64,000 bases of DNA from Paramecium sonneborni (taxonomy: Eukaryota > Ciliophora > Oligohymenophorea > Peniculida > Parameciidae). The position numbers and the translations under genes are program-made. The stretch lies in assembly GCA_905182985.1 (NCBI GenBank), contig CAJJDN010000039.1, positions 372,001-436,000 on the forward strand. The letters run 5' to 3'. Positions 9,905-56,847 of this stretch are shown in pieces. Position 1 is the first letter of the stretch; the number at the start of each line of letters is the position of its first letter. The notes beneath the pieces are model-generated. The model made no database searches and was not told where the DNA came from. It saw only the letters and a list, made by a program, of their open reading frames with translations.

Positions 9905-11210
9905 AATATTTATCTGTTAATTATTAATTAAGTTTTTAGATATAAATAATTATATTATTCATTATTTAATATCTTCATTATAAATAGTAATCTTTAATTT
10001 ATTATCTATGTATTATATCAAATCAATATATATATATATTCAACTATCAATAATATCAAACAACTTATATTCATACTATTGATTCCTCTCCACCCTACTA
10101 TCTATATATTAAAAAACCCATATCATATATTTACTACTTATTATATAGTATATACTCCATTCTAATATATCCATCTGCCTAATTGAGCATTTTTAGAATC
10201 AAATAACCTTTTTTAAATTCACTTAACACCTTAGACGAATTATATTTAGACTTCAAATTTATAAATAAACCTTCATTCAAATCAATCTAATCAATTTAAT
10301 TCAATAAATTACTTCAATCATTAAAATTTCATAAATCTTCAATTGAAATCTGAATTAGCATAAAAAAATTGCAGTTTTAGTAATAATTTTCTTTCTTATT
10401 TCACATTTTACTCTTTATTTCTTAATGATCTTGAAATTTGTCTAAAATGAGTTCTTTTTTTTATTAAGATTTCATAAACTCCATAAAGAGTTTCAAGAAA
10501 CAATTACTTTAAAAATTAAATTAAAAATAGTATTTCTATACTAATTAAAAATTTGTTAATGATTAACAATGTATTCAACTTTATAATTAAACCAAATATA
10601 AACGCACAAATGAATATTACTAGAATAATTATCCATTAAATTATTAGAAATAATTTTCATAATTTTCAATATTATTTTACAATAGATTCTATTACACTTC
10701 TTATTATTAAGTATATAATCAAATTATTCAATTTTAAAAAGTTTACCATGTAATAATTCTCAACTATTTAAAAGCACTTTCATCTTGGATTTATTTATGA
10801 TTTTTTAAATTAAAATTCCAATTGAACTTTTAAATGAATTTTATAAATTCTAAATAAAAAATTAATACTTTTATCTATTATATCCATTTAAAATACAAAG
10901 GATAATGGGGTATTCATTAATTCTCTTCATTATTTCAAATGTATATGTTTGGAGAATCTACATATCACATCAAATTCAATTTTTATGATTTTAAAATTAT
11001 CTAAAAAGAATTTTGATATACTTAATTTCTTTTTGAAAATATTAAAAGATTTACTTGTGGCCTTTTATAGAATATGATCAGAATTTATAATTAAAAAATC
11101 AGATTTTTTAAATAGCATTAAAAATTTTAATTATTCCATAAAGTTGTAATTGTTATAAGTTGAAAATATGTAATTATATAAATTTTCATATTATTTCTAA
11201 AAATAATAGA
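9905..11210. other. Gene-free AT-rich interval
   Basis: No open frame here holds recognisable protein in either strand under the ciliate code, and chance stop-free runs are common because only TGA terminates. The interval contains homopolymer runs and a block at 10643-10870 that matches 19096-19323 (see that repeat). It includes the promoter regions of the divergent genes on either side. Confidence 0.6.
10643..10870. repeat. Copy A of a diverged dispersed sequence
   Basis: Aligned by eye with 19096-19323 in the same orientation. The core around 10771-10800 (AAAGCACTTTCATCTTGGAT and following bases) is nearly identical between copies, while flanks show scattered substitutions and small indels. 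Neither copy has an intact frame. It is either a decayed duplicated gene piece or a non-coding element. Confidence 0.6.
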
Positions 11211-19095: not shown

Positions 19096-19323
19096 AATAG
19101 AAATAATTTTCATATTTTTCAATATTATTTTAAAATATCCTCTATTAAACTCCTTATTATTGTGTATATTAACAAATTTGTCAATATTTAAAAAGTTTAC
19201 CACTTAATAATTCTCAAAAATTTAAAAGCACTTTCATCTTGGATTTATTTTTGATTTATAAATTAAAATATCAGTTGAACTTTAATTCAATTTCATAAAC
19301 TCTAAAGCACAAATCAATACTTG
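19096..19323. repeat. Copy B of the diverged dispersed sequence
   Basis: Matches 10643-10870, same orientation, with the shared core at 19225-19254 differing by about one base in thirty. The similarity fades on both sides. On the minus strand this copy has a short frame reading DESAFKFLRIIKW that is interrupted in copy A, so a dead gene fragment is one explanation. Confidence 0.6.
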
Positions 19324-27765: not shown

Positions 27766-28624
27766 ATTTATAGTATATATTTATTCTATTTGTGTAGTTG
27801 AATTCACTTTTTTTTCAATTAACCCAAAAATGTTAAGATTGATTAGCATTCTTTCACTAAAGATCATTTTCTTTGCTGAAAAATTGTTGAGACAAGAAAT
27901 TTAAAAAGCCATATCCAGGAGAGTTAATGTATTATTTTTACCAAGATGGTATTTATAATAAAATAATAAATGGTGTATTAAAAAAAAATAATAGTATTTC
28001 TAATTTTGTTTTAAATATAGCTATCTGATCTTAGATTAATTATAAAAATTTCTAAATTTGGGAATTAAAATTCTTTAGAATTAAATTGTGCATTAAATTA
28101 TTTGCAATCCAAATCTAAAGACTAATAATCCATAATTTTGATTTTAGAGAAAAAAATCAAGCCCCAACAATTATTATTTACAATAATTAATATTTAATTA
28201 CAAATTAATTTGATTTCATAATTGATTATTTTTTGATTTTAGTTAGTAGTATGTTTTTTCATGGAAAAAAAGATTTTAGAGAAATGAATTTCTAGATTAA
28301 TGAACAGTTAAATATTTTCTCAATTATATAACTTACAAAAATATTTTAATGATATAATTTTGAATTGTTTTTTGTTTTAATAGTTGTTTATATAAATTCA
28401 AAGATAACTAAAATTAAGATAATAAATAGTTCATTCTTCGTTGGAATTATTGTATTTAATGAGAAGGGAGAGAGTTTGTATTAAAATTTGAGTGCAAATA
28501 TTGGAATAATAATGAATCTAAAAGTTTTTGATAATAATAAAGTAGTATAAGACAATTAGAAAGGTTAGATTATATATCAGGTATTTATGTTCTGATTTGA
28601 AGATTTAATTTAAATAAATTAATT
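27766..28624. other. Intergenic spacer
   Basis: AT-rich, no protein-like frame in either strand. It must contain the ATP synthase alpha promoter; no recognised element was seen. Confidence 0.55.
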
Positions 28625-30369
<1,745 letters not shown>

Positions 30370-30416
30370 TCAATTACAAAAAAATAATACATTATATAAA
30401 ATAATAATTTATTAAA

Positions 30417-31466
30417 ATGTCAATTGTATTTGCATAATTAAGATAATTGCGTTATGGTTATTCCCTATATGTGACTGGAAATTGCAATGAATTAGGATGC
30501 TGGAATCCTGAAAAAGCAATTTAATTGAATTATAATGAGATTGATCTGTGGAAATGTGAAGTTGAAATTAAAAGTGAGAATGCAGTTGAATATAAGTACT
30601 TTGTTGCAAAAACAAATAATCCATAATGGGATATTAGATGGGATGAAGGGTAGAACAAAGTTCTAGATAGAACTAAGAGTACTGATTAGTCGAAAATAAT
30701 GACATTTAATATTAGGTATGATTGTCAAGAAGATGCCAATTAAAAGAGGGATTGGAGTCATAGAAAAAACCTTGTTTAAAAATTAATAAAATAGATTAAC
30801 CCTGAAATATTTGGATTGCAAGAAGTACTTGCTCATTAACAAGCAGATTTACTATAAAGTTTTTCAACAAATTATAATTCTATAGGAAGAGGAAGGTAAT
30901 ATAACTTTTGGGATGATGAAGCATGCCCAATTTTTTATGATATGATTAAATATAATTTGATAAAGGCTGAAATATTTTGGTTGTCTGATACTCCAAAGAA
31001 TGCTGGATCTAAGACTTACGGTAATGGATTTCCTCGTATATGTACATACGTTAGTTTATTAAATAAGATGAGCTAAGACATATATCATGTTTACAATGCT
31101 CATTTTGATCATGAACATAAGCAATCACAGGTAAAGTCAGCAGAATAAATAATAAAGCACATTTAATAGTATTGTTCTGCTTAAGATAAAATTATTGTTA
31201 TGGGTGACTTGAATAGTTTACCATTAAGCGATTCAGTGAAGATCTTACAATCACCCATAGGATAAAATTTAAAGTTAGAGAATACAATAGGTGCTTTAGA
31301 AATAGTATTGGCAACATATCACGCATGGTATGGAATGAAATTAGGTATGCATATAGATTATATATTCTTGGGCAATCTTAAGAAAAAGAGTATAATGATC
31401 ATAAATGATTAAATTGAAAAATAATATGCATCAGATCATTTCCCAAAGGTTGTAGTTTTTGAATGA
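30417..31466 (+). CDS. CBM20 starch-binding domain fused to an endonuclease/exonuclease/phosphatase domain
   Basis: 349 residues, intronless. Residues 1-95 match a CBM20 glucan-binding module: LYVTGNCNELGCWNPEKA, NEIDLWKCEVEI, VEYKYFVAK, WDIRWDEG. Residues about 100-345 are an EEP (exonuclease-endonuclease-phosphatase) fold: MTFNIRYD, PEIFGLQEV (catalytic Glu), YNAHFDH, VMGDLNSLP (Asp/Asn pair), GMHIDYIF and YASDHFPKVV (terminal Asp-His). The fold cleaves phosphodiester or phosphate bonds; with CBM20 a phosphorylated glucan or sugar substrate is plausible. No signal peptide, so probably cytosolic. It starts 48 bp after the ATP synthase stop. Confidence 0.88.
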
Positions 31467-31572
31467 GATTTATTTATAATTATAATATTTCTAGAAAATT
31501 ATAATTCATAGTGCGCAATAAGAAGATATTAATTAGAAATAATGGATATATAAAATTTTCATACAAAAGGTA

Positions 31573-34314
31573 ATGGATACACGTCTCAATGAATTAAATA
31601 AATAAATGAGCAAATATATTTATACATTTGGTGATGGCAAAGCTGAAGGCAGTGCAGCAATGAAGAATCTTTTGGGAGGCAAAGGATCAGGATTGGCAGA
31701 AATGAATTTGATTGGCATTCCTGTACCCCCAGGCTTCACAATTACAACAGAAGCTTGCAACTTATACACTAAGAATGGTGCAGAATCCACTTTCGCTCTC
31801 ATCAAGGCTGATGTTGAATAAGCACTTCATCAAGTTGAAGAATTGACCAAGATGGAATTCGGTTCAGCTGAGAATCCTTTACTTGTTTCTGTCAGATCTG
31901 GAGCAAGAGTTTCAATGCCTGGTATGATGGATACAATTCTTAATTTGGGATTAAATGATGTCTCAGTTGAAGGATTGAGTAAGAGAACAAACAACCCAAG
32001 ATTTGCATGGGATTCTTACAGAAGATTCATTCAAATGTTTAGTGACATAGTTTTAGATATGAAGCCAACAACTAAGGAAGACATTGATCCATTTGAAGAA
32101 ATCATCGAAAGTGTCAAACATGCTAAAGGAGTCAAATAAGATACCGAACTTGATGTTGAGGATCTTAAAAGTTTAGTTGTTAAATACAAGGAGGCTGTTA
32201 AAGCAAAAACAGGAAATGATTTCCCATAAGAACCATAATAATAATTATGGAGAGCTATTTAAGCTGTGTTTGATAGTTGGAACAATGATAGAGCCAAATA
32301 CTATAGAATTCTTAACAAAATCCCTGAAGATTGGGGAACTGCAGTTAATGTCTAAGCTATGGTTTTCGGTAACATGGGTAATACTTCAGCTACTGGAGTT
32401 GGATTCACTAGAGATGCATCTACTGGAGAAAATATCTTCAATGGAGAATATTTGATCAACGCTCAAGGAGAAGATGTCGTTGCTGGTATTAGAACACCAT
32501 AATAAATCACCTTGATTGGATCAAAAAGATGGGCTGAATCATAAGGTGTTCAAGAAGATGTTAGAAAAACCTAATTCCCATCATTAGAAGAATCATTACC
32601 TGAAACTTACTTAGAATTGAAGAATGTCTAAGAAAAATTAGAATAGCACTTCAAAGATATGTAAGATATTGAATTCACTATTCAAAATGGAAAATTATGG
32701 TTATTATAATGCAGAAATGGTAAAAGAACAGGTGCTGCCATGGTTCAAATTGCTTGTGATTTATTTAGAGAAGGAAAGATTGATGAAAAGACAGCTCTTA
32801 AAAGAATTGAACCAAATAAATTAGATGAATTATTACATCCAATTTTCACCCCTGAAGCTTTGAAAACAGCTAAATTTGTAGCTAAGGGATTACCAGCATC
32901 CCCAGGTGCAGCATCAGGATAGATAGTTTTCTTTGCTGATGAAGCTAAGAAATTTGCTCAAAGTATTTTAGTTAGAATTGAAACATCTCCAGAAGATTTG
33001 GAAGGTATGAACATTGCTAGAGGTATATTGACAGCTAGAGGAGGTATGACTTCTCATGCTGCAGTTGTTGCAAGAGGTATGGGTAAATGTTGTGTTTGTG
33101 GAGCAGGAGCTTTAAATATTAATTATAAATAAAGAACACTTGAAGTAGGTGGTAAAGTTTATGCTGAAGGAGATTGGATTTCATTAAATGGATCAACAGG
33201 AGATGTTTTTGAAGGCAAATTATAAACATAAGAAGCCTAACTCAGTGGAGATTTTGGTTTAATTATGGATTGGGCTGAAAAATATACTAGAATGTATGTC
33301 AGAACTAATGCAGATACACCAAAAGATGCTTAAGTTGCTAGAAAATTCGGTGCTAAAGGTATTGGATTGACAAGAACTGAACATATGTTCTTTGAAGGTG
33401 AGAGAATCAAAGCTATGAGAGAAATGATTTTGGCATCTGATTTAGCTGGTAGATAATTAGCATTGGCTAAATTATTACCATTCTAAAGAACAGACTTTGA
33501 AGGTATATTCGAAGCTATGAATGGATATGGTGTCACCATTAGATTGTTAGACCCACCCCTTCATGAATTCGTTCCACATGAAACTGCTTAATAATAAGAA
33601 TTAGCATAAGAAATGGGATTGACATTAGAATAAGTTAAGTAAAAAGTACATGAATTAGCTGAATTCAACCCAATGTTGGGACATAGAGGATGCAGATTAG
33701 GAATTACTTATCCCGAGATTACTGAAATGTAAACTAGAGCTATCATTGAAGCAGCTCTTAATATCAAAGCTAAAGGATTGGATGTTAAACCAGAAATTAT
33801 GGTTCCATTAGTTGGTAATGTTAATGAATTAGAACATTAATTGAAAGTTGTTAGAAAAACAGCTGATACAGTATTCAAAGAAAGAAATGACACTATTCAT
33901 TATTTAGTAGGAACTATGATTGAAGTACCAAGAGCTTGTTTAGTTGCTGATTCTATTGGTTAAATTGCTGAATTCTTTTCATTTGGTACTAATGATTTGA
34001 CTTAAATGACACTTGGATTTTCAAGAGATGATGCAGGTAAATTCTTACCATACTATATCAACAATGGAATTTTGAAAGTTGATCCATTCTAAGTTTTGGA
34101 TAGATAAGGAGTTGGAAAGATGGTTGAATTAGCTGTCAAGAATGGAAAATCAACAAATCCAAATTTGAAAGTTGGTATTTGTGGTGAACATGGAGGAGAA
34201 CCATCATCAGTTGAATTCTTCCACATTGTAGGATTAGATTATGTCAGTTGCTCACCTTTCAGAGTTCCAATTGCTAGAGTTGCAGCAGCTATAGCCAATT
34301 TAACCCATGCATGA
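31573..34314 (+). CDS. PPDK: Pyruvate, phosphate dikinase
   Basis: 913 residues from ATG 31573 (902 if ATG 31606 is used), intronless. Interconverts pyruvate, ATP and phosphate with PEP, AMP and pyrophosphate; common in protists with PPi-linked glycolysis. Domains in order: ATP-grasp N-terminus ([43 protein letters not shown]), phosphohistidine domain with [15 protein letters not shown] (catalytic His) and [10 protein letters not shown], and the C-terminal PEP/pyruvate barrel ([63 protein letters not shown] with catalytic Cys). Normal length; all catalytic residues present. Its last 447 nt reappear at 35127 as an assembly duplicate. Confidence 0.97.
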
Positions 34315-35124
34315 GTATTTCATTAAAAAATATATAAATGTTTATTTAATCAATATGTCTGATTTAGACATAGAAGACATTATAAAAAAATCAAAAATAT
34401 ATGTTTTTTGAATTTTTAATATTGTGAAGGTATTAAATAGCCATTTCTTCAATTGTATCATACGAACTATAAACTTAAATAATAAAGAAGTTGAGGGAAA
34501 CTACCTTAAGGTAATAAAATCACTAAATCAATAACCCTTAGTTCTGAATTTAGATCTCGCTAACGTTCTTTTATTCTTAATAAAGATCTTTTATTAATTT
34601 TTATTCAAGGATCTAAGAAATAAGGAGAAGAGGATTAGGATAAAATATATATACATAAATTTAATCTATTTTCATCATAATTTTCAGTGTTGTTGCAATG
34701 ATATTTACAAAACCACAGAATAATAATTAAATTATAATTTTCATAATATTATTATTCCATCAATATCATTTTCTGTTTATTTAAATTCTTCAAAATCAAT
34801 TTAAGCAATTTATAAATGGGATTTTTTATTTTAATATTTCTTAATATTTATAAAGATCAACCAAATCAACAATTAAAGATTTTTAAGATACAAAATAAAA
34901 TAATTAATAATTAATAATTGGGATGTTAATCATTATTATTGAAAGTTTATTTATAAATATTATTTTATAAACCGATTTTTTTCAGCTGGTTTAAGTATAA
35001 AAATTTTTAGCAATATTATAATAATGAAATTAATTCATAATTAAAGAAGCAAATATATTTTAATTTGATAAGTTTTTAATTATTCATCATTCGAATCTCG
35101 TGATTTACGTTTCTTCGTTTATAG
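33868..35124. repeat. Contig-overlap segment 1, first copy
   Basis: Bases 33868-35124 (1257 bp) repeat at 35127-36383 right after the N at 35125, offset 1259. Only one difference was noted: T at 33961 versus C at 35220 (TAA versus CAA, both Gln). Read as an unmerged contig overlap, not biology. Confidence 0.92.
34391..35124 (-). other. First (5'-truncated) assembly copy of the bHLH-like locus
   Basis: Identical to 35650-36383; the stop TGA is at 34391-34393, 76 bp beyond the PPDK stop and on the opposite strand. It runs into the N at 35125. See the entry at 35650-36391. Confidence 0.55.
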
Positions 35125-35126
35125 NG

Positions 35127-35573
35127 ACAGTATTCAAAGAAAGAAATGACACTATTCATTATTTAGTAGGAACTATGATTGAAGTACCAAGAGCTTGTTT
35201 AGTTGCTGATTCTATTGGTCAAATTGCTGAATTCTTTTCATTTGGTACTAATGATTTGACTTAAATGACACTTGGATTTTCAAGAGATGATGCAGGTAAA
35301 TTCTTACCATACTATATCAACAATGGAATTTTGAAAGTTGATCCATTCTAAGTTTTGGATAGATAAGGAGTTGGAAAGATGGTTGAATTAGCTGTCAAGA
35401 ATGGAAAATCAACAAATCCAAATTTGAAAGTTGGTATTTGTGGTGAACATGGAGGAGAACCATCATCAGTTGAATTCTTCCACATTGTAGGATTAGATTA
35501 TGTCAGTTGCTCACCTTTCAGAGTTCCAATTGCTAGAGTTGCAGCAGCTATAGCCAATTTAACCCATGCATGA
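35127..35573 (+). pseudogene. Duplicate 3' end of PPDK created by assembly
   Basis: Reads [14 protein letters not shown] through NLTHA and TGA, identical in protein to the end of PPDK at 31573-34314, with no start or upstream domains. It begins immediately after the N. It is the left end of the next contig and should be merged, not counted as a gene. Confidence 0.9.
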
Positions 35574-36383
35574 GTATTTCATTAAAAAATATATAAATGT
35601 TTATTTAATCAATATGTCTGATTTAGACATAGAAGACATTATAAAAAAATCAAAAATATATGTTTTTTGAATTTTTAATATTGTGAAGGTATTAAATAGC
35701 CATTTCTTCAATTGTATCATACGAACTATAAACTTAAATAATAAAGAAGTTGAGGGAAACTACCTTAAGGTAATAAAATCACTAAATCAATAACCCTTAG
35801 TTCTGAATTTAGATCTCGCTAACGTTCTTTTATTCTTAATAAAGATCTTTTATTAATTTTTATTCAAGGATCTAAGAAATAAGGAGAAGAGGATTAGGAT
35901 AAAATATATATACATAAATTTAATCTATTTTCATCATAATTTTCAGTGTTGTTGCAATGATATTTACAAAACCACAGAATAATAATTAAATTATAATTTT
36001 CATAATATTATTATTCCATCAATATCATTTTCTGTTTATTTAAATTCTTCAAAATCAATTTAAGCAATTTATAAATGGGATTTTTTATTTTAATATTTCT
36101 TAATATTTATAAAGATCAACCAAATCAACAATTAAAGATTTTTAAGATACAAAATAAAATAATTAATAATTAATAATTGGGATGTTAATCATTATTATTG
36201 AAAGTTTATTTATAAATATTATTTTATAAACCGATTTTTTTCAGCTGGTTTAAGTATAAAAATTTTTAGCAATATTATAATAATGAAATTAATTCATAAT
36301 TAAAGAAGCAAATATATTTTAATTTGATAAGTTTTTAATTATTCATCATTCGAATCTCGTGATTTACGTTTCTTCGTTTATAG
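35127..36383. repeat. Contig-overlap segment 1, second copy
   Basis: Repeat of 33868-35124. Its right end passes without a break into the phosphodiesterase 5' region, which shows the true order is PPDK, bHLH-like locus, phosphodiesterase. Confidence 0.92.
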
Positions 36384-36391
36384 GCTTTCAT
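35650..36391 (-). CDS. Putative basic helix-loop-helix-like protein (5' end unresolved)
   Basis: The 3' exons are clear: KRSLLRIKERQRDLNSELRV, LVILLPQ, a 31-nt intron (35733-35763), then VYSSYDTIEEMAIQYLHNIK and NSKNIYF to TGA at 35650-35652. The order of basic/ERxRR-like segment, first helix ending in LLP, loop, and second helix with AIQYLHNI matches a bHLH dimerisation domain. Upstream, SSSPYFLDP is in the same frame but followed by a TGA with no clear intron, so the N-terminus is not modelled; ATG 36391 is only a candidate and lies implausibly close to the phosphodiesterase start at 36407. A bHLH call rests on pattern alone. Confidence 0.42.
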
Positions 36392-37128
36392 AATTTATTT
36401 TATAATATGTCTAAATAAAACTTAAGCAACTACATCAAATTTTTAAATCATATCACAGATTTAGAGCAAAAAGGTCTCATTTCTTCAAAACAAAAACATC
36501 TTTTGAAAATGAATCTCAAAACGAAAGAATAACTATTAGAAAAATTGATTTGCTCTTTTGAGGATGAGCACAATAACTAAAATGCTATATTTTCATATTT
36601 AAATGTAATAGAACCAAAAACTCGGGCTAGATGTCACTCTTCCTAGGAAAATGAAGCTCCATTAATGTTTAGAAATAACCATAACACTCATTCATAAGTT
36701 ACTTCTTTTAATGAGTCCAGATTGATTGCCCATTTGGATGATCTTAATGATGAATTAATGAATATTTGGCAATCAGAATCATAGCTGGTAAGATTACATT
36801 AATGACATCTAGCTCTTTAATCAAGAAATAAATGAAAAATTAAAAAAAGTTGGAGAATTAATAGCAAAAACTGCTACTTCAACACCTTGTGGATCTTAAA
36901 AACAAGTCATTAATGCTATTGAAACCCTATCCATTATAGATGGTCTTAAATAACTTTATAAAGACTTGAAAGTAAAAATTGATTTTTATTAAAGCAACAT
37001 TTTAATGATTATTTACGTTGTCATATTTTGTTGATGGATAATTAATTCACTACTTAGAATTTGTATAAAATGTTAAGAGCTTTTATGAAAAATTTAGTAG
37101 ATGCGGATGAAGTTACATTCATTATAAA
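35715..37128. repeat. Contig-overlap segment 2, first copy
   Basis: Bases 35715-37128 (1414 bp) repeat at 37130-38543 just after the N at 37129, offset 1415. Because the left part is itself the overlap of join 1, about 670 bp occurs three times in the window. Confidence 0.92.
36407..37128 (+). pseudogene. Truncated assembly copy of the phosphodiesterase 5' end
   Basis: Same sequence as 37822-38543, including both 5' introns, but cut by the N at 37129 in the codons for DEVTFII. Not an independent gene. Confidence 0.9.
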
Positions 37129-37129
37129 N

Positions 37130-38543
37130 TATCATACGAACTATAAACTTAAATAATAAAGAAGTTGAGGGAAACTACCTTAAGGTAATAAAATCACTAA
37201 ATCAATAACCCTTAGTTCTGAATTTAGATCTCGCTAACGTTCTTTTATTCTTAATAAAGATCTTTTATTAATTTTTATTCAAGGATCTAAGAAATAAGGA
37301 GAAGAGGATTAGGATAAAATATATATACATAAATTTAATCTATTTTCATCATAATTTTCAGTGTTGTTGCAATGATATTTACAAAACCACAGAATAATAA
37401 TTAAATTATAATTTTCATAATATTATTATTCCATCAATATCATTTTCTGTTTATTTAAATTCTTCAAAATCAATTTAAGCAATTTATAAATGGGATTTTT
37501 TATTTTAATATTTCTTAATATTTATAAAGATCAACCAAATCAACAATTAAAGATTTTTAAGATACAAAATAAAATAATTAATAATTAATAATTGGGATGT
37601 TAATCATTATTATTGAAAGTTTATTTATAAATATTATTTTATAAACCGATTTTTTTCAGCTGGTTTAAGTATAAAAATTTTTAGCAATATTATAATAATG
37701 AAATTAATTCATAATTAAAGAAGCAAATATATTTTAATTTGATAAGTTTTTAATTATTCATCATTCGAATCTCGTGATTTACGTTTCTTCGTTTATAGGC
37801 TTTCATAATTTATTTTATAATATGTCTAAATAAAACTTAAGCAACTACATCAAATTTTTAAATCATATCACAGATTTAGAGCAAAAAGGTCTCATTTCTT
37901 CAAAACAAAAACATCTTTTGAAAATGAATCTCAAAACGAAAGAATAACTATTAGAAAAATTGATTTGCTCTTTTGAGGATGAGCACAATAACTAAAATGC
38001 TATATTTTCATATTTAAATGTAATAGAACCAAAAACTCGGGCTAGATGTCACTCTTCCTAGGAAAATGAAGCTCCATTAATGTTTAGAAATAACCATAAC
38101 ACTCATTCATAAGTTACTTCTTTTAATGAGTCCAGATTGATTGCCCATTTGGATGATCTTAATGATGAATTAATGAATATTTGGCAATCAGAATCATAGC
38201 TGGTAAGATTACATTAATGACATCTAGCTCTTTAATCAAGAAATAAATGAAAAATTAAAAAAAGTTGGAGAATTAATAGCAAAAACTGCTACTTCAACAC
38301 CTTGTGGATCTTAAAAACAAGTCATTAATGCTATTGAAACCCTATCCATTATAGATGGTCTTAAATAACTTTATAAAGACTTGAAAGTAAAAATTGATTT
38401 TTATTAAAGCAACATTTTAATGATTATTTACGTTGTCATATTTTGTTGATGGATAATTAATTCACTACTTAGAATTTGTATAAAATGTTAAGAGCTTTTA
38501 TGAAAAATTTAGTAGATGCGGATGAAGTTACATTCATTATAAA
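37130..38543. repeat. Contig-overlap segment 2, second copy
   Basis: Repeat of 35715-37128. It contains the 5' half of the bHLH-like locus (its 3' end is missing here) and the start of the complete phosphodiesterase gene. Confidence 0.92.
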
Positions 38544-40774
38544 TAATGAATTGTATACTTCAACTACAGAATAATTTCAAGATATATAAATAACCGAAAA
38601 ATAATAATATGAGATTGATCTTATTTAAGATGGAAAAGTGATTGATTTAACAGAATTCTACCCTGAATTAGGTGCCCTATTTTAAACTAATTAATATAAG
38701 AGCAATTATGTTTTAAGAATCTAGAATTCTTAATGTATTTTTTGTTTTCATCTAAAAGGAGAACGTAAAACAATTATACGTTCCTTTCTATCTTTATGTA
38801 ATGAATACTAATTTTTTGATGAAGTTAATTAATTAGGCTTTCTCTTATTGGAATCTCTTAAATAAGCAAGAGTTTAATGTTTTAATCCATTATAACTTTC
38901 TCATATGATTTAAGATATTGGAATAGCATTTATAAGATGTTCTAAATATGTTTTTATTCAAAAAGTGATTGAAATGCTTTAAGAAAGATATCTAGTTTAT
39001 AAAGAGAATACTTCATTTTCAAGTGATTATCCATATGTTGAATTTGATTTTAGGGATTCCTTAAATTTGAGTATATATATATGTATGGATTTGAATAAAA
39101 AAGATGAGATGAATGTTTATAAATAATTGAATTTAAGTTACAATAAATACTTAAAGTTTATCAAATAATGTTATGATAGAACAACATTTTATAAATTCTT
39201 TGTGAAATCTTAGGATTCTTTAATATTTGAATTTGATAAATAAGGTTAAATTACATTTGTATCTTAACCGATAACCAAAAAATTAGCTGATGATTTTGGT
39301 ATTAATTTTAATTCTTAGAAATTGAATTCATCTTATAAAAGTATATTTAGAAATTAAGATTTATTGTAACATATAGAAAATTAATTACAAGAATAGAATT
39401 AATGGATATTGAAAGATAGTAATGCTCCTTATGAAATATTTATGAAAATGGAGGAGAAATATTTCAAAGGATTCTTTGTGATATTCTAATAAGGTTGGTT
39501 TAGATATGATCATTAAAAAGAATTAGATGCAAGTTAATGGAATAAATTAAGAAAAACTATAATGGAGTCAGAAACTAAATTATATTTAGATAAATTGGAG
39601 TAGAAACATCCTTAATTAAAAAATTCAGTTATTCAAATGTTTAAACCAAAATCAATATAGAAATAATCTTTGTTTAAGAATTTCAGTCCAAGTTTTAGTC
39701 CAAATCATTTGGATTAAAGAAATTCTCTTTAAGAGAGTGAGAATGTTAGACGGATTCCAAAAACAAAGGGAGTGAATCATTTTTATTCAGACATGCTTAT
39801 AGATACTTGTATTGAAAATATAAACAATTAAAATTTTAATATATTACCATATAGTAATGATTGGTTAGAGAAACAAAAAGTAGTATTTTAGATATTAAAA
39901 AATAATAATTTTATTTAGGAATATAAAATAAATGAAACTTCATTGTGTAATTTTTTATGTGCACTTGAATACAAATACAATAAAAGAGGTAATTAATTTC
40001 ATAATTATGATCATGGTGTGACAGTAATGTAATGTACACATGCAATATGTTTAGAAATGATGAATACAAAGCATGGATAGTTATTGACTTAATTTATAAA
40101 GTTTGCTCTAATATTAGCAAGTTTATGTCATGATGTATCTCATACAGGAAGAACTAATATATTTGAGATAAATAGTCTTTCAAATTTGGCAATAAGATAT
40201 CATGATAAAAGTGTATTAGAATAACATCATGCAGCAACATCTATAAAATTACTTTGTTCACCCTCTACAAACATAATTCCAAATTTTAACTCTGAAGAAT
40301 TTAGAGAGTTTAGAAAGTTATTTATTGCTAATATACTTTTTACTGATATAACTGAACATTACAACTTAATGAAGAGCTTTGAAGCCCGTACTTGTGAAAT
40401 TAATTTTGGAACAAAAGAGGATGTTCGATTAATAACAGGAATGATAATTCATACATCAGATTTTGCTGGTGGAGCTAAGCCATTTCCAATAAGTAAAGAA
40501 TGGAGTGTTAGAGTAAATAAAGAATTTTAAGAATAATATACTTTAGAAGGTAAATTTGGATACCCTTAATTACCATACATGAAAGATTTAGACTAAGTAT
40601 TCTAATTTATAAATTTAGTTACCTATCATGGCTAAATCAGAAATAGGCTTTTTTACATTCATCGTCAGACCTTTATGGACAGTAATGTCTAAGTTTCTTG
40701 AAGATAGATTAAAAGATAATATAGATAATCTTGATAATACAATTATTGAATGGCAAAAGTTAATGATTAAATGA
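37822..40774 (+). CDS. 3',5'-cyclic nucleotide phosphodiesterase (class I PDE)
   Basis: 960 residues; introns 38203-38227, 38387-38409, 40597-40618. Hydrolyses cAMP and/or cGMP. The catalytic HD domain lies at about residues 690-950 and keeps the metal ligands: HNYDHGVTVMQ, CHDVSHTGRTN, LEQHHAATSIKLL, FTDITEHYNLM, HTSDFAGGAKP, and the closing LPIMAKSEIGFFTFIVRPLW. The long N-terminal region (about 650 residues) is helical and polar without a GAF or membrane signature that I can name, so regulation is unclear. In ciliates cyclic nucleotides control ciliary beat. Complete only in this copy, after the second N. Confidence 0.93.
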
Positions 40775-40789
40775 TATTAAATATAAAAA

Positions 40790-41301
40790 ATGTCTGTTAT
40801 TAGAGAATTGAGTCATTAAAAAAGAAATGTGGTTTTAGAGTTGTTTGGTACATCTAAAAGAAGAATAGATTTAAAAGAAAATGTATCATCTCCTATCAAT
40901 CGACCTTCCAAACGATTTAATTATCCATAATCTAGCAATGCTAGTAAATTATTCTAAATACTAAAATAAACTCCTACTATTAAATAATCAGCATTAAAGA
41001 CTTCTAAAAAAAATAATGAAAGCACAGGATTAAATGAAAGTATTTGTCGAAAAGTATTCATTATTACTTAGAATAGAAAATATTGCATATTGATATTTAA
41101 GAACCTAGAACCTATTTAAAATAAGTTATTTCTCCTTATAGAGATTTTCGATCATAAGTCTCATTTGACATTGCCCCTTAAACATGTGTGATACTTCCTC
41201 GAAAAATTAGTCAACCTCAATAACTTAATTAATAAAAAAATTCTGTTCGAAGATCCAATAGTTTCAGAGATCTTTTCAAAAGCTAAATTACATTTGGTTG
41301 A
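40790..41301 (+). CDS. Small basic protein, unknown
   Basis: 162 residues, one 23-nt intron (41054-41076). Starts 15 bp after the phosphodiesterase stop. Rich in Lys, Arg, Ser and Gln (KRRIDLKENVSSPINRPSKR at the start; KNSVRRSNSFRDLFKSQ at the end), with several RxxS sites. No domain recognised; probably disordered. The near overlap with its upstream neighbour is typical compact spacing and does not imply an operon. Confidence 0.7.
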
Positions 41302-41558
41302 CCCAGTAAACATAATTTGCAACTTAAAATAAATATATATTCAATTTAATTTCATTGAATCATGTTAATTCATCTCTAACTAAATTTTTTGAATTATTTA
41401 CCAGACTTTTCTTATTAATTCCATTAAGATTGATCATTCATATATTATAAATTCAATTATTGACAAAAAATATTGATATTAAAACAGATAGAATTCTCTT
41501 TACTTTTTTTTATATTATAGTAAGTGTTTTAATATTATTTTTGATTAGTATATAAAAT

Positions 41559-43295
41559 ATGTAATCAATTCCAATTTTACAGATAGATCATTTACTCAAC
41601 ACTTTTTAGATTAAGGCTAAACTTGGAAAAGGAGCTTTTGGAAATGTATTTACATTTTAACATTAAGGTTTATAAAGTTCTTGGTCCTGATTAATAAATA
41701 TATGCACTTAAATGTATATATAAACGACGTTTTAAAGAAGCCAATGGATGTGTAGGAGAATTAATTATGAATGAAGTGAATGCTTTAAAATAACTCTAAA
41801 GTTAATTTATAGTCAATTTAAAATAAACTTTTGAATGCAATTATGAAGATGAAACCATTTTCTGCATTTTATTAGAATATTGCGATAGTAATATAAATAA
41901 AAATCATCTTAGATGGAAATCTTTTGGAGTATTTACAGAAAAATTATACTAATTTTGATTAATAAAAAGCAATTGTGTTTTTCAAATAAATCCTTTAGGG
42001 AATGTAGATGATCCACTAAAAAAGGATAATACATAGAGATCTAAAATTGCCTAACATTTTAGTACACTAAGATTAAATTAAAATTGCTGATTTTGGATTT
42101 TGTCATATCTTAGAAGAAGATGTAAGTAGATAAGATGTATCATTTAAGTAAAATTAAGTTAAATTAAACTTGGGATCACTTGGTACTTAAGCACCAGAAG
42201 TTCTGAATAATGAACCATATGGATTAAAGTCAGATATGTTCTCTATTGGCGTCATTCTATACTAGCTATTATTTTTTTCATATCCATTTAGTGTAACAAG
42301 CAAATAAGATTTTCTAAATTCAGTAACATCTTAAAGTATTTTCTAAAAAATTTTAGATCCTCCTTCCTTTAAAAAAAATGGAAAATTAATTGAAAAATAT
42401 TTGGAAGATTTATTGACAAAAATGTTGAAAAAAGATCCAAACGAAAGGTTAGATTGGCATGCTCTTTTTAAATCTAAGTTATTTCAAAATAGTTACTCAT
42501 GTATTTTTTAAATTTTATGAAGAAATGTTTGGTGTATCAACTATCGAGGATGAAAGTATTATAGATCCTATCAAAAGCTACATTTATTATAAATAATAGA
42601 TAAAAACCTAATTTCTTGAGTCTTCTATACAAAAAATTGAGAAAACCCCTAAATATATTGATCTCTAATCTCAAATTAAATTCTTAACTTATACTTATGA
42701 ATTTAGTTATAAAGTTCATCATCGATAAGTTTTGATGGTAATAAAACAAATATTATTTAGTGTATTATTCCGTGTTTTCTTATACTTAAATAACTTTATT
42801 ATAAGTAGCAGTTATATTAGAGTTAGAATAAGCATAAGATATTTGATCTAGCGCTTACTCATCAATATCTTACTTACTAGTATTAAGTAGTGATGTAATT
42901 TTCAACTTATTATTAGGGCAAATTTATAAAAAATAAAGTAATTAGGCTTAATCGAATAAGATTGGGAAGAAGAACTTATAAATCTATCAATAAGTTCAAA
43001 ATTTTAAACCATATTTTCATAAGTTGTTAAGAAATATTTATTAAGTTTGAAGAATGAAATCCTAAAGGATTCAGAAGAATAAAAAATTGAATGGTAAGAT
43101 ATTTTACTTCAAGAAAACAATAAAAGTTAGCAAGAAATTAAAAAATTTATATCGAAATTAAAATTTTTTATTTTAATTCATAAAGTGTTATCTTTAGAAG
43201 AAATAAAACAGGAATTATTTTAAGAATTAATTAACGATATTTAAGATAAAAATGCATAATTAGTAGATATTTATTAAAACATTGTATTAAGTTGA
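41559..43295 (+). CDS. Serine/threonine protein kinase with long helical tail (ULK-like, tentative)
   Basis: 540 residues with introns 41646-41667, 41888-41912, 42501-42522, 42738-42760, 42895-42916; the spliced length is exact. Kinase domain, residues about 15-290: AKLGKGAFGNVYKVLG, YALKCIYKRRF (beta-3 Lys), ILLEYCDNGNLLEYL, IIHRDLKLPNILV, KIADFGFCHIL, GSLGTQAPEVLN, LKSDMFSIGVILYQLLF. The GTxAPEVL form and organisation resemble ULK/ATG1-type or related ciliate kinases, but the subfamily is uncertain. Tail (about 250 residues) is helical (LIEQDWEEELINLSIS, WQDILLQENNKSQQEIKKF) and may bind partners. Catalytic residues intact. Confidence 0.85.
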
Positions 43296-43383
43296 ATAAT
43301 GACTTTAAAATTATGTGAAAGATTGCGTAATTAAGATATAATCTATGTAGTATATCAAATAAATATATATAGAAATAGTAGTT

Positions 43384-46300
43384 TCAAATAATTTTTCCAC
43401 CTTTTTATTTTAAGTTAAACATAAACTCTAATTTAGCTAATTTAACATGTATATCTATTCTGAAAAACAATTTTCTTAATATGATATCTTATTGTCTTCT
43501 TTTTATATTTGATGCCTTATCATTGTTCTATGGTCTAACTTAAATATTTAATTATTTAATTGGGGATGTCTCTGTTTTTTTTTTATTTGGTTCAATACTA
43601 GTAGATCTTAATGATTAAGGAATTTATGATGTTGCTTAAACTTTAATTAATGTTGGTTCTTTACTCTTTTAATTAGAGAATTAGTTTAAATAAATAATAT
43701 CCAAAACTTAAGCAACTGGAGTACGTTTAGTTGGATCATCAAGAATAGATTAATCAATATGATAAACAGCACTACTATTATCAAGAACTTCATTATTGAT
43801 TGATCCTATTTTATGAGATATTTCTGGAACAGTAATTTAAGTTTCAATTTATAATTGTTTAAATCTATTAGTATCAATACTTGAACCTCTTGTATGGCTA
43901 TCTCTTCTACTTCTTAAAGGAGTAAAATTCTTTTCTGGTCTTAAAGCACTACAATTTATAGGCTAAACTTTAATGCGAGATAAAGATTGTTTTTATTCTG
44001 ACAAAGTTAAAGATGATTTTTCATCAAATTTAGGTTGTTTTATATCACTTAATTAATTCACTTTTTTTAAGACTAATGAGTCAATCATTTCAATAGGGAG
44101 TGATTATATTAATTATTCATTATTCTTTTCAACTGATTTCTATATATTAGTTTCTAATTCTTCAATTTTCTTAAATTAAATGATTCTATCCTCATTTAAT
44201 TATTCTTATATATTATTATTTTCTAAAATAGTATTAACAATCTTTTGTTCTTTTAAATTATTCTTTTATGGCGAATCTAATTTCTTCTCCATTATATTTT
44301 CATTTTATTTTTCTGTCAAAATGTTTATTATATCTACTTTTTCATTTTATTATTAATTCAGAATCTCAACTTTTTATAAATTTTCTTATTCATGTTTTTT
44401 AAATAAATTTTATCTTTGAGGAGTTCTCTTCTTTGGTTGAACAGATGTTTAATCAAAAATCTACATTATATTCTAGATTTTATTGTTATCCTACTTTTTT
44501 TCACTCTTTAATATTTACATAAAACTATCTTGTTATTAATCAATATAATCACTGTTGTTTTAATAATCAATCACTGATTGTTATTCCATGATTTCAACTG
44601 TTTTTTTTTATTTAGAATTTTAAGTTAAATCTATCTTTAAAAATGATTTAATTTATTTTTATTATGTTTCACAAATTTTTTATTAAGTTTCAAAAGTTAT
44701 CTGTGAATTTGTTGATTCTTATTCATCTTTTTATGTTTGAGATTCTAAAACTTCATCTAAAGATTTTTCTGGTTTTAAATAAAGTTTATTAATTAAATTA
44801 TTTAATTTAGATTAAACAGGTGGCAAATCCATATCAGGGATTATAAAATTTAATTATTAACTAGAAGTTTCTTCAGATTAAAGAGGAACATTATTCTCGT
44901 TTTAAGAAAATTTAATTTTCAATTATTCAATTTTCTTTTAATTTGGTTTAATATCTGTTTTAGTGTCAAAAATATCATTAATCAAAAATGGCTATCTTTT
45001 TAAATAAAATCTTCCTTTTTCATCATCATCCTAACAAACACTTTATTCAAAAGAGCTTTCTTCATCTAATGTATATAAACTATTATTCTATGTTTTAAAC
45101 CTTGGTTAATCATAAGTTTCTCTTATGGATTATAATTTTTAATTTATTATGTTTTAAGATTCAATATTTTAAATTTAATTTAATTATTCTTAACTATCCT
45201 AAATTTTAACATCTTAACAATTCTCCAATGATGGTTAATTATATTCTTCATTATTTGGTTTGGCTTACAAATCAAATTATTTTTTATATTGTTCTAATAA
45301 TTTTGAAGGTTTTATCTAAACTTCTTCTATTTCTATATTTGTACATGTCTCATCTTTACTTATACATATTTATTCATCTCCTTAAAGTTATAATTACTTG
45401 TCGATTTAAGAAAGTTTTGTTATTTCAAGTGGAATTATATTCTCAGATTTAATTTTGGAATTTCTTTTATTATTAAAAGACAAATCAATAGAAAATTAAT
45501 TAGTTTCTTGTTTCTTTTCTGAATTATATTCTATTTCTTTTGTTTCTTATTTGTTAGATCTATCAAATAATGCATCAAGTATATTATTATTAGTTGATTG
45601 ACGAAATCTTGATTCTTAGGATAAATCATCTTTTCTTTCATATCTATCAGTTAATCTATTACTAGTATCAGATCTTTCTGTTTTTTCACCTTTTGTTTAT
45701 CTACTTTATCTCATCTCTTGATTTCTTTTTTTAGACGGTGGGTCCCATTAATCAAATAATTATTATTTTAAAGTCGAAACACTACTTCTACAAAATGTTC
45801 TTTCTAAAACTGACATAGACTAATCATTCTAATTAATCTTTTAAATTATCTTTAATTAAGCACAACAAAATTGAGAATAAGAATCTGAAAATATAAATTT
45901 AATTTCTTAAAATTCTTTCTTTTTAAAATTAATTGTTATTTCATTACCATAATTCATTTTTTTAAATAAAGTTTAATTTACATAAAATTGATGAGATTAA
46001 AAATCTTCTAAATTCCATTATAAAAGGGATTTTCCTTATATTGCAAATATAAACTTATTATTTGCACTTATATCTTCTAAATTATTAATTTTAAGCTTAA
46101 TCATTTTATTTGTATAACAATAAGCATCTCCATTTTCTGTTATGGCTATACCTCCAAATTAAAATAATAAAGATTTCTTGAAAAAAGCATTAGTTCCTAA
46201 TCCATTTAATTACTAAATAGGAGTCTAAACATCATTTTCAATATTAAAAATTTTTCCACCAACTAATAAAATTTATATTAATTTTCTACTTGTAATTAAA

Positions 46301-46752: not shown

Positions 46753-47370
46753 ATTTTTATATACGTTAATATTATAAATTATCATTTATTTAAGCATTTC
46801 TTATTTATAATAAACTAAATCAATTTTAACACACCCATTAATCATCATAGCATATTCTTTTATTAAATATATCTCTTCAATAATTCTATTCTTACTTTTA
46901 ACTATCAAAAAAAGTTAGTATTTATTTTCATAAATTCTATTCATTTAAATAAGTCATATATTTATTTTTTTATTCGAAAATCCTTAACTCTATTGTATTA
47001 TATATATATCAATTATATTAAAAATACATTCAAGATTTTTTAATCTCAAACAGAATCAACAATCATAATATAATTATTTTTATTACAAACCTTTTTCTAT
47101 CCTTATGTTTTATATTTTCATAATATCATTTCAAAATAAAATCATTTTTCTATTTTTAAATCAATAGAAGAAATGAATTTATTTTAGAATAATTATATCG
47201 ATTGAAAATCAACATAAACTTATAATATAATTGAAACAATATATGTTATAGTTTTTTATAACTAATATTGAATACTAGAAAAATATTATTTTTATTTTCT
47301 CTTGTGTTCTCATCTAAGTTTATTAAATGAAAATTAAAAAATATTATTAAGAAATTATAAAAATATTAAA
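46753..47370. other. Intergenic region between divergent genes
   Basis: Promoter interval for the RCC1-like gene (-) and the SAPS gene (+). No gene or recognised element seen. From 47195 rightward it is also part of overlap segment 3. Confidence 0.55.
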
Positions 47371-48267
47371 ATGAACTCATTGCTTGAAATTTTAGATATT
47401 TATAATGAAAACGAAATGGAGATTATTGAATTGTAATTATCGCATGATATTCAAGTCTAAATTCAAATAAAAATAATATGATGGATTTTTTGAAATTAGT
47501 GATTGAAACCCCTAGTAATCTACATCCAAAGTATGTCTAAATCCTTTAATTAGATATCCTTTCATCGTAAGTGAATTAATGTTTGGGAGTTATGAACAAT
47601 TACTATAAATGATGTTTGAATGGGATGGAGAACCAATTTAATATTTGCTGACATTCTTCAATTATCCATAAAATGACACTTCTTGTGGTTACTTTGAAAA
47701 AATGATAAGACCTCTAATTTTATTAAAATCTAATGAAATGAAACCCTTTTTAGAGATTGCTAAATGGATTAAATTCATAGATTAAGAATCTATTTAAAAC
47801 ATATTCTCAACAATATTAGCATGTAGCAATTTAGAAGAAAATTTCAAATAAGATCTCCTTGGAATGCTTTTAAATTAAAAAAATATTAGTGAAAATGTTT
47901 TTCGAATAATAATTAAATACACAGATCTATTTTAATAATATGTGAATCAACATTAAGAAGTTATTGGGATAATTTTTAATCAAACACCTCCTACATTTCA
48001 TTAATTATGCATTATAGAATTATTTATGGGATGGAATATATTAAATTTAGAATGGCTTTATAATTAAATTAATTATTTATAGTAATTAGTCTATAGAGAA
48101 TTTGATTTTTGCAATTCCACAATGAATTTCTTACATAAACCTCAAGGAATTTCGGAAATAGATTTAAAAATAATCCACATATTAACATAGACTTTAACAA
48201 GACCTGAAACAATTAAATTTTAGAATGTTTTATTAGAATTGCTATTAAAATATGAATGGAATAATAA
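47195..48267. repeat. Contig-overlap segment 3, first copy
   Basis: Bases 47195-48267 (1073 bp) repeat at 48269-49341 after the N at 48268, offset 1074, with no difference noticed by eye. Confidence 0.92.
47371..48267 (+). pseudogene. Truncated assembly copy of the SAPS gene
   Basis: Same as 48445-49341 and cut by the N in the codons for YEWNN. Not an independent gene. Confidence 0.9.
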
Positions 48268-48268
48268 N

Positions 48269-49341
48269 ATATCGATTGAAAATCAACATAAACTTATAAT
48301 ATAATTGAAACAATATATGTTATAGTTTTTTATAACTAATATTGAATACTAGAAAAATATTATTTTTATTTTCTCTTGTGTTCTCATCTAAGTTTATTAA
48401 ATGAAAATTAAAAAATATTATTAAGAAATTATAAAAATATTAAAATGAACTCATTGCTTGAAATTTTAGATATTTATAATGAAAACGAAATGGAGATTAT
48501 TGAATTGTAATTATCGCATGATATTCAAGTCTAAATTCAAATAAAAATAATATGATGGATTTTTTGAAATTAGTGATTGAAACCCCTAGTAATCTACATC
48601 CAAAGTATGTCTAAATCCTTTAATTAGATATCCTTTCATCGTAAGTGAATTAATGTTTGGGAGTTATGAACAATTACTATAAATGATGTTTGAATGGGAT
48701 GGAGAACCAATTTAATATTTGCTGACATTCTTCAATTATCCATAAAATGACACTTCTTGTGGTTACTTTGAAAAAATGATAAGACCTCTAATTTTATTAA
48801 AATCTAATGAAATGAAACCCTTTTTAGAGATTGCTAAATGGATTAAATTCATAGATTAAGAATCTATTTAAAACATATTCTCAACAATATTAGCATGTAG
48901 CAATTTAGAAGAAAATTTCAAATAAGATCTCCTTGGAATGCTTTTAAATTAAAAAAATATTAGTGAAAATGTTTTTCGAATAATAATTAAATACACAGAT
49001 CTATTTTAATAATATGTGAATCAACATTAAGAAGTTATTGGGATAATTTTTAATCAAACACCTCCTACATTTCATTAATTATGCATTATAGAATTATTTA
49101 TGGGATGGAATATATTAAATTTAGAATGGCTTTATAATTAAATTAATTATTTATAGTAATTAGTCTATAGAGAATTTGATTTTTGCAATTCCACAATGAA
49201 TTTCTTACATAAACCTCAAGGAATTTCGGAAATAGATTTAAAAATAATCCACATATTAACATAGACTTTAACAAGACCTGAAACAATTAAATTTTAGAAT
49301 GTTTTATTAGAATTGCTATTAAAATATGAATGGAATAATAA
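48269..49341. repeat. Contig-overlap segment 3, second copy
   Basis: Repeat of 47195-48267. It continues into unique sequence at 49342, completing the SAPS gene. Confidence 0.92.
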
Positions 49342-49899
49342 CTTATAAAATATAGCTGTAAACATGTATTAATTAATGTCATTAGAAGAAACACCACATA
49401 AATAATATGTAAATTTTATATTTTTATCTAGTTTCAATCAATAATTAGTGATTTTATAATAAATAATGTGAATTTCTAAAAAGTTGAATTTGGATTAAAA
49501 TAAAAACTTTCTAGAGGTTATAGATGGGTATTTACTAAAATCGTCAAATATTTTTCATTAAACTTTATAGAAGCATAAGAGATTTCTGCTTTAGAGGGAA
49601 AATATTTAATGAATATAGATCCATCAAATAATAGAGAGAGACAATCTATAAATATTCTAGAGAAGGTATCAGAGAGAAGAACTTAATGGGCAAAAAGAAT
49701 ACAAGAGGAAGAAATATAAAAATAAGGAGAAAAAGACAATATGTAAATAGAAGAAGAAGAAAATGATGAGAATGATTAATTATTCCAACCTCGAAATAGT
49801 TTTGGAATAAAACCAATAATAAATAATGAGGAAATGGAAGATGAAATTCCAATAAGAGGAAGATCAAGTTGTTAATTCAAATAAGATGATTCAGATTGA
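48445..49899 (+). CDS. SAPS-domain protein (PP6/Sit4 phosphatase regulatory subunit-like)
   Basis: 461 residues; introns 48507-48529, 48605-48627, 49409-49431, all 23 nt. SAPS proteins bind the catalytic subunit of PP6/Sit4-type phosphatases and direct their specificity. The characteristic opening is present: EFLNSNKNNMMDFLKLVIETP followed by NLHPKYPFIVSELMF, then EPIQYLLTFFNYP and YFEKMIRPLILLK. The rest is all-helical. The C-terminal 110 residues are charged and disordered (RRTQWAKRIQEEEIQKQGEK, EEEENDENDQ), a likely phosphorylation tail. Shorter than animal PP6R proteins (about 800-900). Family call is by motif pattern. Confidence 0.78.
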
Positions 49900-56618: not shown

Positions 56619-56794
56619 TCAACCTTTTAATTCAGGCAAAGAACTAATTGCATTTTTCCAAACTTCGAAAGGTGTCTAAACTTTTTATTATTATTATTAT
56701 TATTGTTATTGTTATTATTGTTATTATTATTGTTATTATTGTTATTATTATTGTTATTATTATTATGATTATTATGATTATTATTATTATTAGG

Positions 56795-56847
<53 letters not shown>

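Follow-up and report, generated by a model that had tools for sequence, protein, structure and literature searches.

The window analysed here is a stretch of 64,000 nucleotides (C39:372001-436000) within the 91.5-Mb, 289-contig genome of Paramecium sonneborni; C-numbers denote scaffolds of this same genome. Its G+C content is 24%, and long open reading frames (ORFs) require that TAA and TAG be read as glutamine, as in the ciliate code. ORFs of at least 100 amino acids number one in 28000-44000 under translation table 11, and 59 in 30000-50500 under table 6. Searches of the whole window gave no Rfam match at gathering score and no tRNA (ARAGORN, bacterial code), and within 34300-35124 there was no Rfam match up to E = 1. 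Self-comparison revealed a short degenerate tandem repeat at 56682-56846, and a stretch of about 226 bp in two copies that are 85% alike (10645-10870 and 19098-19322).

On the forward strand at 31606-34314 lies a complete gene for pyruvate phosphate dikinase (PPDK) of 902 amino acids, recognized from its ORF, its Pfam domains and a P. pentaurelia homologue. The ORF extends over 31405-34314 (969 amino acids) and contains the domains PPDK_N, PEP-utilizers and PEP-utilizers_C; we placed the start at residue 68, guided by the homologue of 902 amino acids. The protein is 97% identical to that of Paramecium pentaurelia over 93% of the 969-residue query ORF, and 95% identical to that of P. tetraurelia over 77% of it; Table 1 of PMC8354472 lists the two among the aurelia species, and the organism studied here is thus probably of the aurelia group as well. 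Among the matches listed, the best 120 of at least 7999, the proteins next after two Paramecium clusters are 73-75% identical, and the four of these listed with an organism name are all Bacteroidota. This pattern might serve as a lead for horizontal transfer.

Downstream of PPDK, the sequence at 34350-34660 retains what is left of a gene for a roadblock/LC7 dynein light chain, its reading frames disrupted. The gene is open on scaffolds C37 and C36, in two exons, and in the C37 copy each of the two pieces matches Pfam Robl_LC7, the first of them just at the cut-off. In the C57 copy the frame changes within the second part. As judged from the sequences, this looks like gene loss following whole-genome duplication. 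The next gene on the forward strand, in its full-length copy at 37822-40701, was delineated from ORFs, Pfam and a block of homology with C57. Its ORF 38449-40701 bears a cyclic nucleotide phosphodiesterase domain. The ORF 37822-38220 probably belongs to the same gene, and 37818-38729 aligns with C57 as a single colinear block.

The window contains three N bases, all single, at 35125, 37129 and 48268. The first-pass annotation had reported repeats of 1257 bp and 1414 bp across the first two, and self-comparison of the window recovered both. At 35125 the sequence 33868-35124 recurs as 35127-36383, on the same strand, with 99.92% identity over 1257 bp and one mismatch. When the suffix/prefix comparison is counted right up to the N, the overlap is 1258 bp with two mismatches, these being 35126 G against 33867 T, and 33961 T against 35220 C. 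Both lie within 95 bp of the N, and scaffold C57 has T at the second site, in agreement with the first copy. At 37129 the sequence 35715-37128 is repeated on the forward strand as 37130-38543, with 100% identity over 1414 bp and no mismatch. Thus the description of the repeats as abutting the N exactly holds for 37129 but not for 35125, where 35126 intervenes, and the T/C difference is real but is not the only one. We find a further join that had gone unremarked, at 48268, where suffix/prefix comparison shows 47195-48267 and 48269-49341 (both forward strand) to be identical over 1073 bp, with no mismatch; the latter block occurs once on C57. At each of these positions adjacent contigs align end to start across the gap, as in the definition of duplicated overlapping contigs. 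All three seams carry an N, where a true tandem duplication would be expected to give a gap-free seam. By comparison, among 2000 random pseudo-joins in the window (first 30 bases exact, <2% mismatches, draws lying within 3 kb of an N left out) there was no suffix/prefix overlap of 30-1499 bp.

The two adjacent joins separate three pieces, A, B and C, that are nested. We denote 33868-34455 as P, 34456-35124 as Q, 36384-37128 as R, and the sequence beyond R in piece C as S. Piece A ends in P-Q (33868-35124), piece B (35126-37128, forward strand, 2003 bp) is P-Q-R after its first base, and piece C starts with Q-R (37130-38543) and continues into S. Segment Q is therefore present three times. Moreover, 34456-35124 is exactly the same as 37130-37798 over 669 bp, so that pieces A and C overlap directly, and the order P-Q-R-S can be read without crossing any N. 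Apart from the T/C site and the base at 35126, everything in piece B is also present in A or C, and the true locus should be 2674 bp shorter across both joins (37130 minus 34456).

The repeats alter the apparent gene content. PPDK is whole only once in the window, and its second 'copy' is a false C-terminal piece, an ORF of 132 amino acids on the forward strand at 35175-35573. It matches a database protein of 132 amino acids that is 100% identical and has two member sequences; the contig that carries this protein measures 634334 bp, as C39 does. Similarly, judged by ORF and overlap, 36407-37128 on the forward strand falsely repeats, in truncated form, the beginning of the next gene, the phosphodiesterase gene if the two ORFs are one gene. 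At the third join the ORF 48653-49471 reaches a stop codon, and its copy starting from 47579 ends at the N. For the phosphodiesterase-domain gene and the gene at the third join alike, one copy is thus full and the other truncated. The earlier warning that gene counts or duplications taken from this region would be wrong is borne out, since the extra PPDK and phosphodiesterase pieces are false and truncated.

Blocks of 64-97% identity run in the same order on scaffold C57 as in the window, and from this colinearity we read C57 as the whole-genome-duplication partner (ohnolog). On C57 the blocks 33731-34398, part of Q (34580-34919), R with the sequence that follows (37818-38729) and the gene at the third join are all single-copy and in order. 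In the reverse test, the blocks doubled at C57:173975, 180575 and 208637 occur once on C39, and the block doubled at C36:177744 occurs once on C37. In all seven testable cases of the nine short joins sampled the ohnologous partner is therefore single-copy; the count leaves out C57:226080, which has no match on C39 there, and C10:150057. This test is our own, and lies outside the definition of duplicated overlapping contigs in the passages of PMC2864568 to which we refer. The PPDK ohnologs are 92-100% identical in 200-bp bins, and such near-identity may have contributed to the contig breaks at PPDK. As a general cause of breaks it was rejected, since the third join lies in a stretch of 82-93% identity. 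Identity to C57 is 91-100% at 28600-30400 and 31400-33536 and 61-75% at 30400-31400 between them, a strong contrast between adjoining genes.

Some 207 kb of distinct sequence served to assess how often the pattern recurs, comprising 84 kb of C39, 60 kb of C57, 15 kb of C37, 10 kb of C36, 8 kb of C10 and six 5-kb pieces; one 5-kb piece that was all N and one 3.7-kb C36 locus lacking N were dropped. The sample is non-random, being mostly picked for homology with the window. It contains ten runs of N, of which eight are single, one is of 17 and one of 1385, and in the 20 kb of C39 that flanks the window we looked for N runs and found none. Overlaps of 1073-1414 bp flank all nine short runs (8/8 of the single N and the one run of 17). 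In eight cases the overlap is ungapped, with lengths of 1258, 1414, 1073, 1205, 1166, 1110, 1155 and 1167 bp. The join at C57:173975 failed the ungapped test; its copies span 1316 bp on the left and 1386 bp on the right, with two mismatches and an internal length difference of about 70 bp. Taking 1316 bp for this join, the mean overlap of the nine is 1207 bp (SD 106). The long run, C57:198721-200105, is an unfilled gap of 1385 N within the ohnologous PPDK gene, and is without flanking overlap. It lies between matches to window positions 33536 and 33731, which are 194 bp apart, giving an excess of about 1191 bp, which is also the size of the overlaps.

We conclude that the repeated blocks are almost certainly an assembly artefact, in which single-copy DNA has been written twice, and Q three times. 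This is supported by the near-perfect identity that extends to the N, the nesting of the pieces, the single-copy state of C57, and the presence of the same pattern at every short run sampled. The first-pass annotation had proposed contigs abutted without merging of their overlaps; the artefact itself stands, but we favour overshooting gap filling over overlaps that existed beforehand, because overlap lengths fall together at 1.07-1.41 kb and agree with the surplus length of the unfilled gap. In this process mate-pair scaffolding would overestimate gap sizes by about 1.2 kb; the gap filler would then grow the contigs on either side towards each other, drawing on the same reads, until nothing remained of the supposed gap. 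It would run too far, and the two copies would stay separated by a leftover N. With one unfilled gap and nine short ones to go by, we regard this route as the likely cause of the artefact. The simplest single cause would be a systematic overestimate of gap size of about 1.2 kb followed by overshooting fill from both sides. With somewhat less assurance, we think it probable that this mate-pair excess is general, and that a false duplication lies behind almost all short N runs. The published pipeline for Paramecium macronuclear genomes (contigs from Newbler, scaffolding by SSPACE on mate pairs of 5-13 kb, and two rounds of GapCloser), as given in the part of PMC8354472 concerned, is compatible with this model, and may have been used for the present assembly. 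The differing bases in the first overlap and the differences at C57:173975 fit with error in gap filling or consensus, although strictly they could be real divergence.

The main alternative is also an artefact, in which assembler contigs that already overlapped by about 1.2 kb were set end to end with one N and no gap filling. We consider this rather unlikely, although a single N would suit it if, as we assume, SSPACE marks a negative gap in this way. The passages of PMC8110574, PMC5368935, PMC2864568 and PMC10265787 to which we refer say nothing of a lone N left behind by SSPACE or GapCloser, and those of PMC2864568 do describe duplicated overlapping contigs as a class. Against this reading, the overlaps are narrowly clustered (1073-1414 bp) and one run is of 17 N rather than one. 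In addition, the pipeline described in the relevant section of PMC8354472 uses read fragments of about 450 bp and merges contigs at 99% identity over 99 bp; if that pipeline applied, exact overlaps of a kilobase should have been merged.

Two biological explanations fare much less well. The scaffold might fuse two forms of somatic DNA, arising from alternative macronuclear rearrangement or from alleles, and Q has a TA at its start and another one base short of its end, which gives it a loose resemblance to an excised element. The copies are identical, however, rather than alternative, and the ends are a poor fit to the Paramecium excision end consensus. Part of Q is present on C57 at 70% identity and Q includes gene remains, so this is not a locus-specific insertion. 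The match on C57, the gene remains and the poor fit of the ends also led us to reject Q (34456-35124) as an excised germline element. Variable macronuclear regions do exist in ciliates, and those defined in the portion of PMC8354472 in question lie at scaffold extremities; such a possibility lends the reading some support, and we judge it very improbable overall. True tandem duplications of very recent date (PQ-PQR-QR), each seam retaining an N, are scarcely credible. Head-to-tail copies would likewise abut and have unique flanks, but the presence of an N where the copies join, together with the ohnologs (7/7 single-copy), decides for an artefact. The same pattern at 9/9 short N runs, the near-zero divergence of the copies, and extra gene pieces that lack their other ends also speak against duplication.

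Assembly artefact by overshooting gap filling, the reading we prefer, has partial parallels. One is the class of duplicated overlapping contigs, false segmental duplications described in Genome Biology in 2010 (PMC2864568). As in the account given in those passages, neighbouring contigs here align at their ends and ought to be merged, and the false duplications are highly similar. There the cause is haplotype divergence, whereas here the copies are near-identical and the likely cause is an error in gap size together with gap filling. In the GapCloser example within the RegCloser paper (PMC10265787) the filler also writes more copies than exist. The example as presented there is of a short tandem repeat, given 7.9 copies in place of 2.9, while in P. 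sonneborni it is non-repetitive sequence that is doubled.

This is a known kind of assembly error of low biological interest, and its value is as a warning. If the gap-size excess is general, then at the rate of our non-random sample (nine in about 207 kb), there would be thousands of such joins, affecting several percent of the assembly. They would be detected by a simple filter that flags short N runs with a suffix/prefix match between their flanks. False gene fragments would also have entered the protein databases, and one such fragment already matches an entry. Paramecium genomes serve studies of gene retention after whole-genome duplication, and false copies with near-zero divergence would mimic very recent duplicates and add truncated genes.
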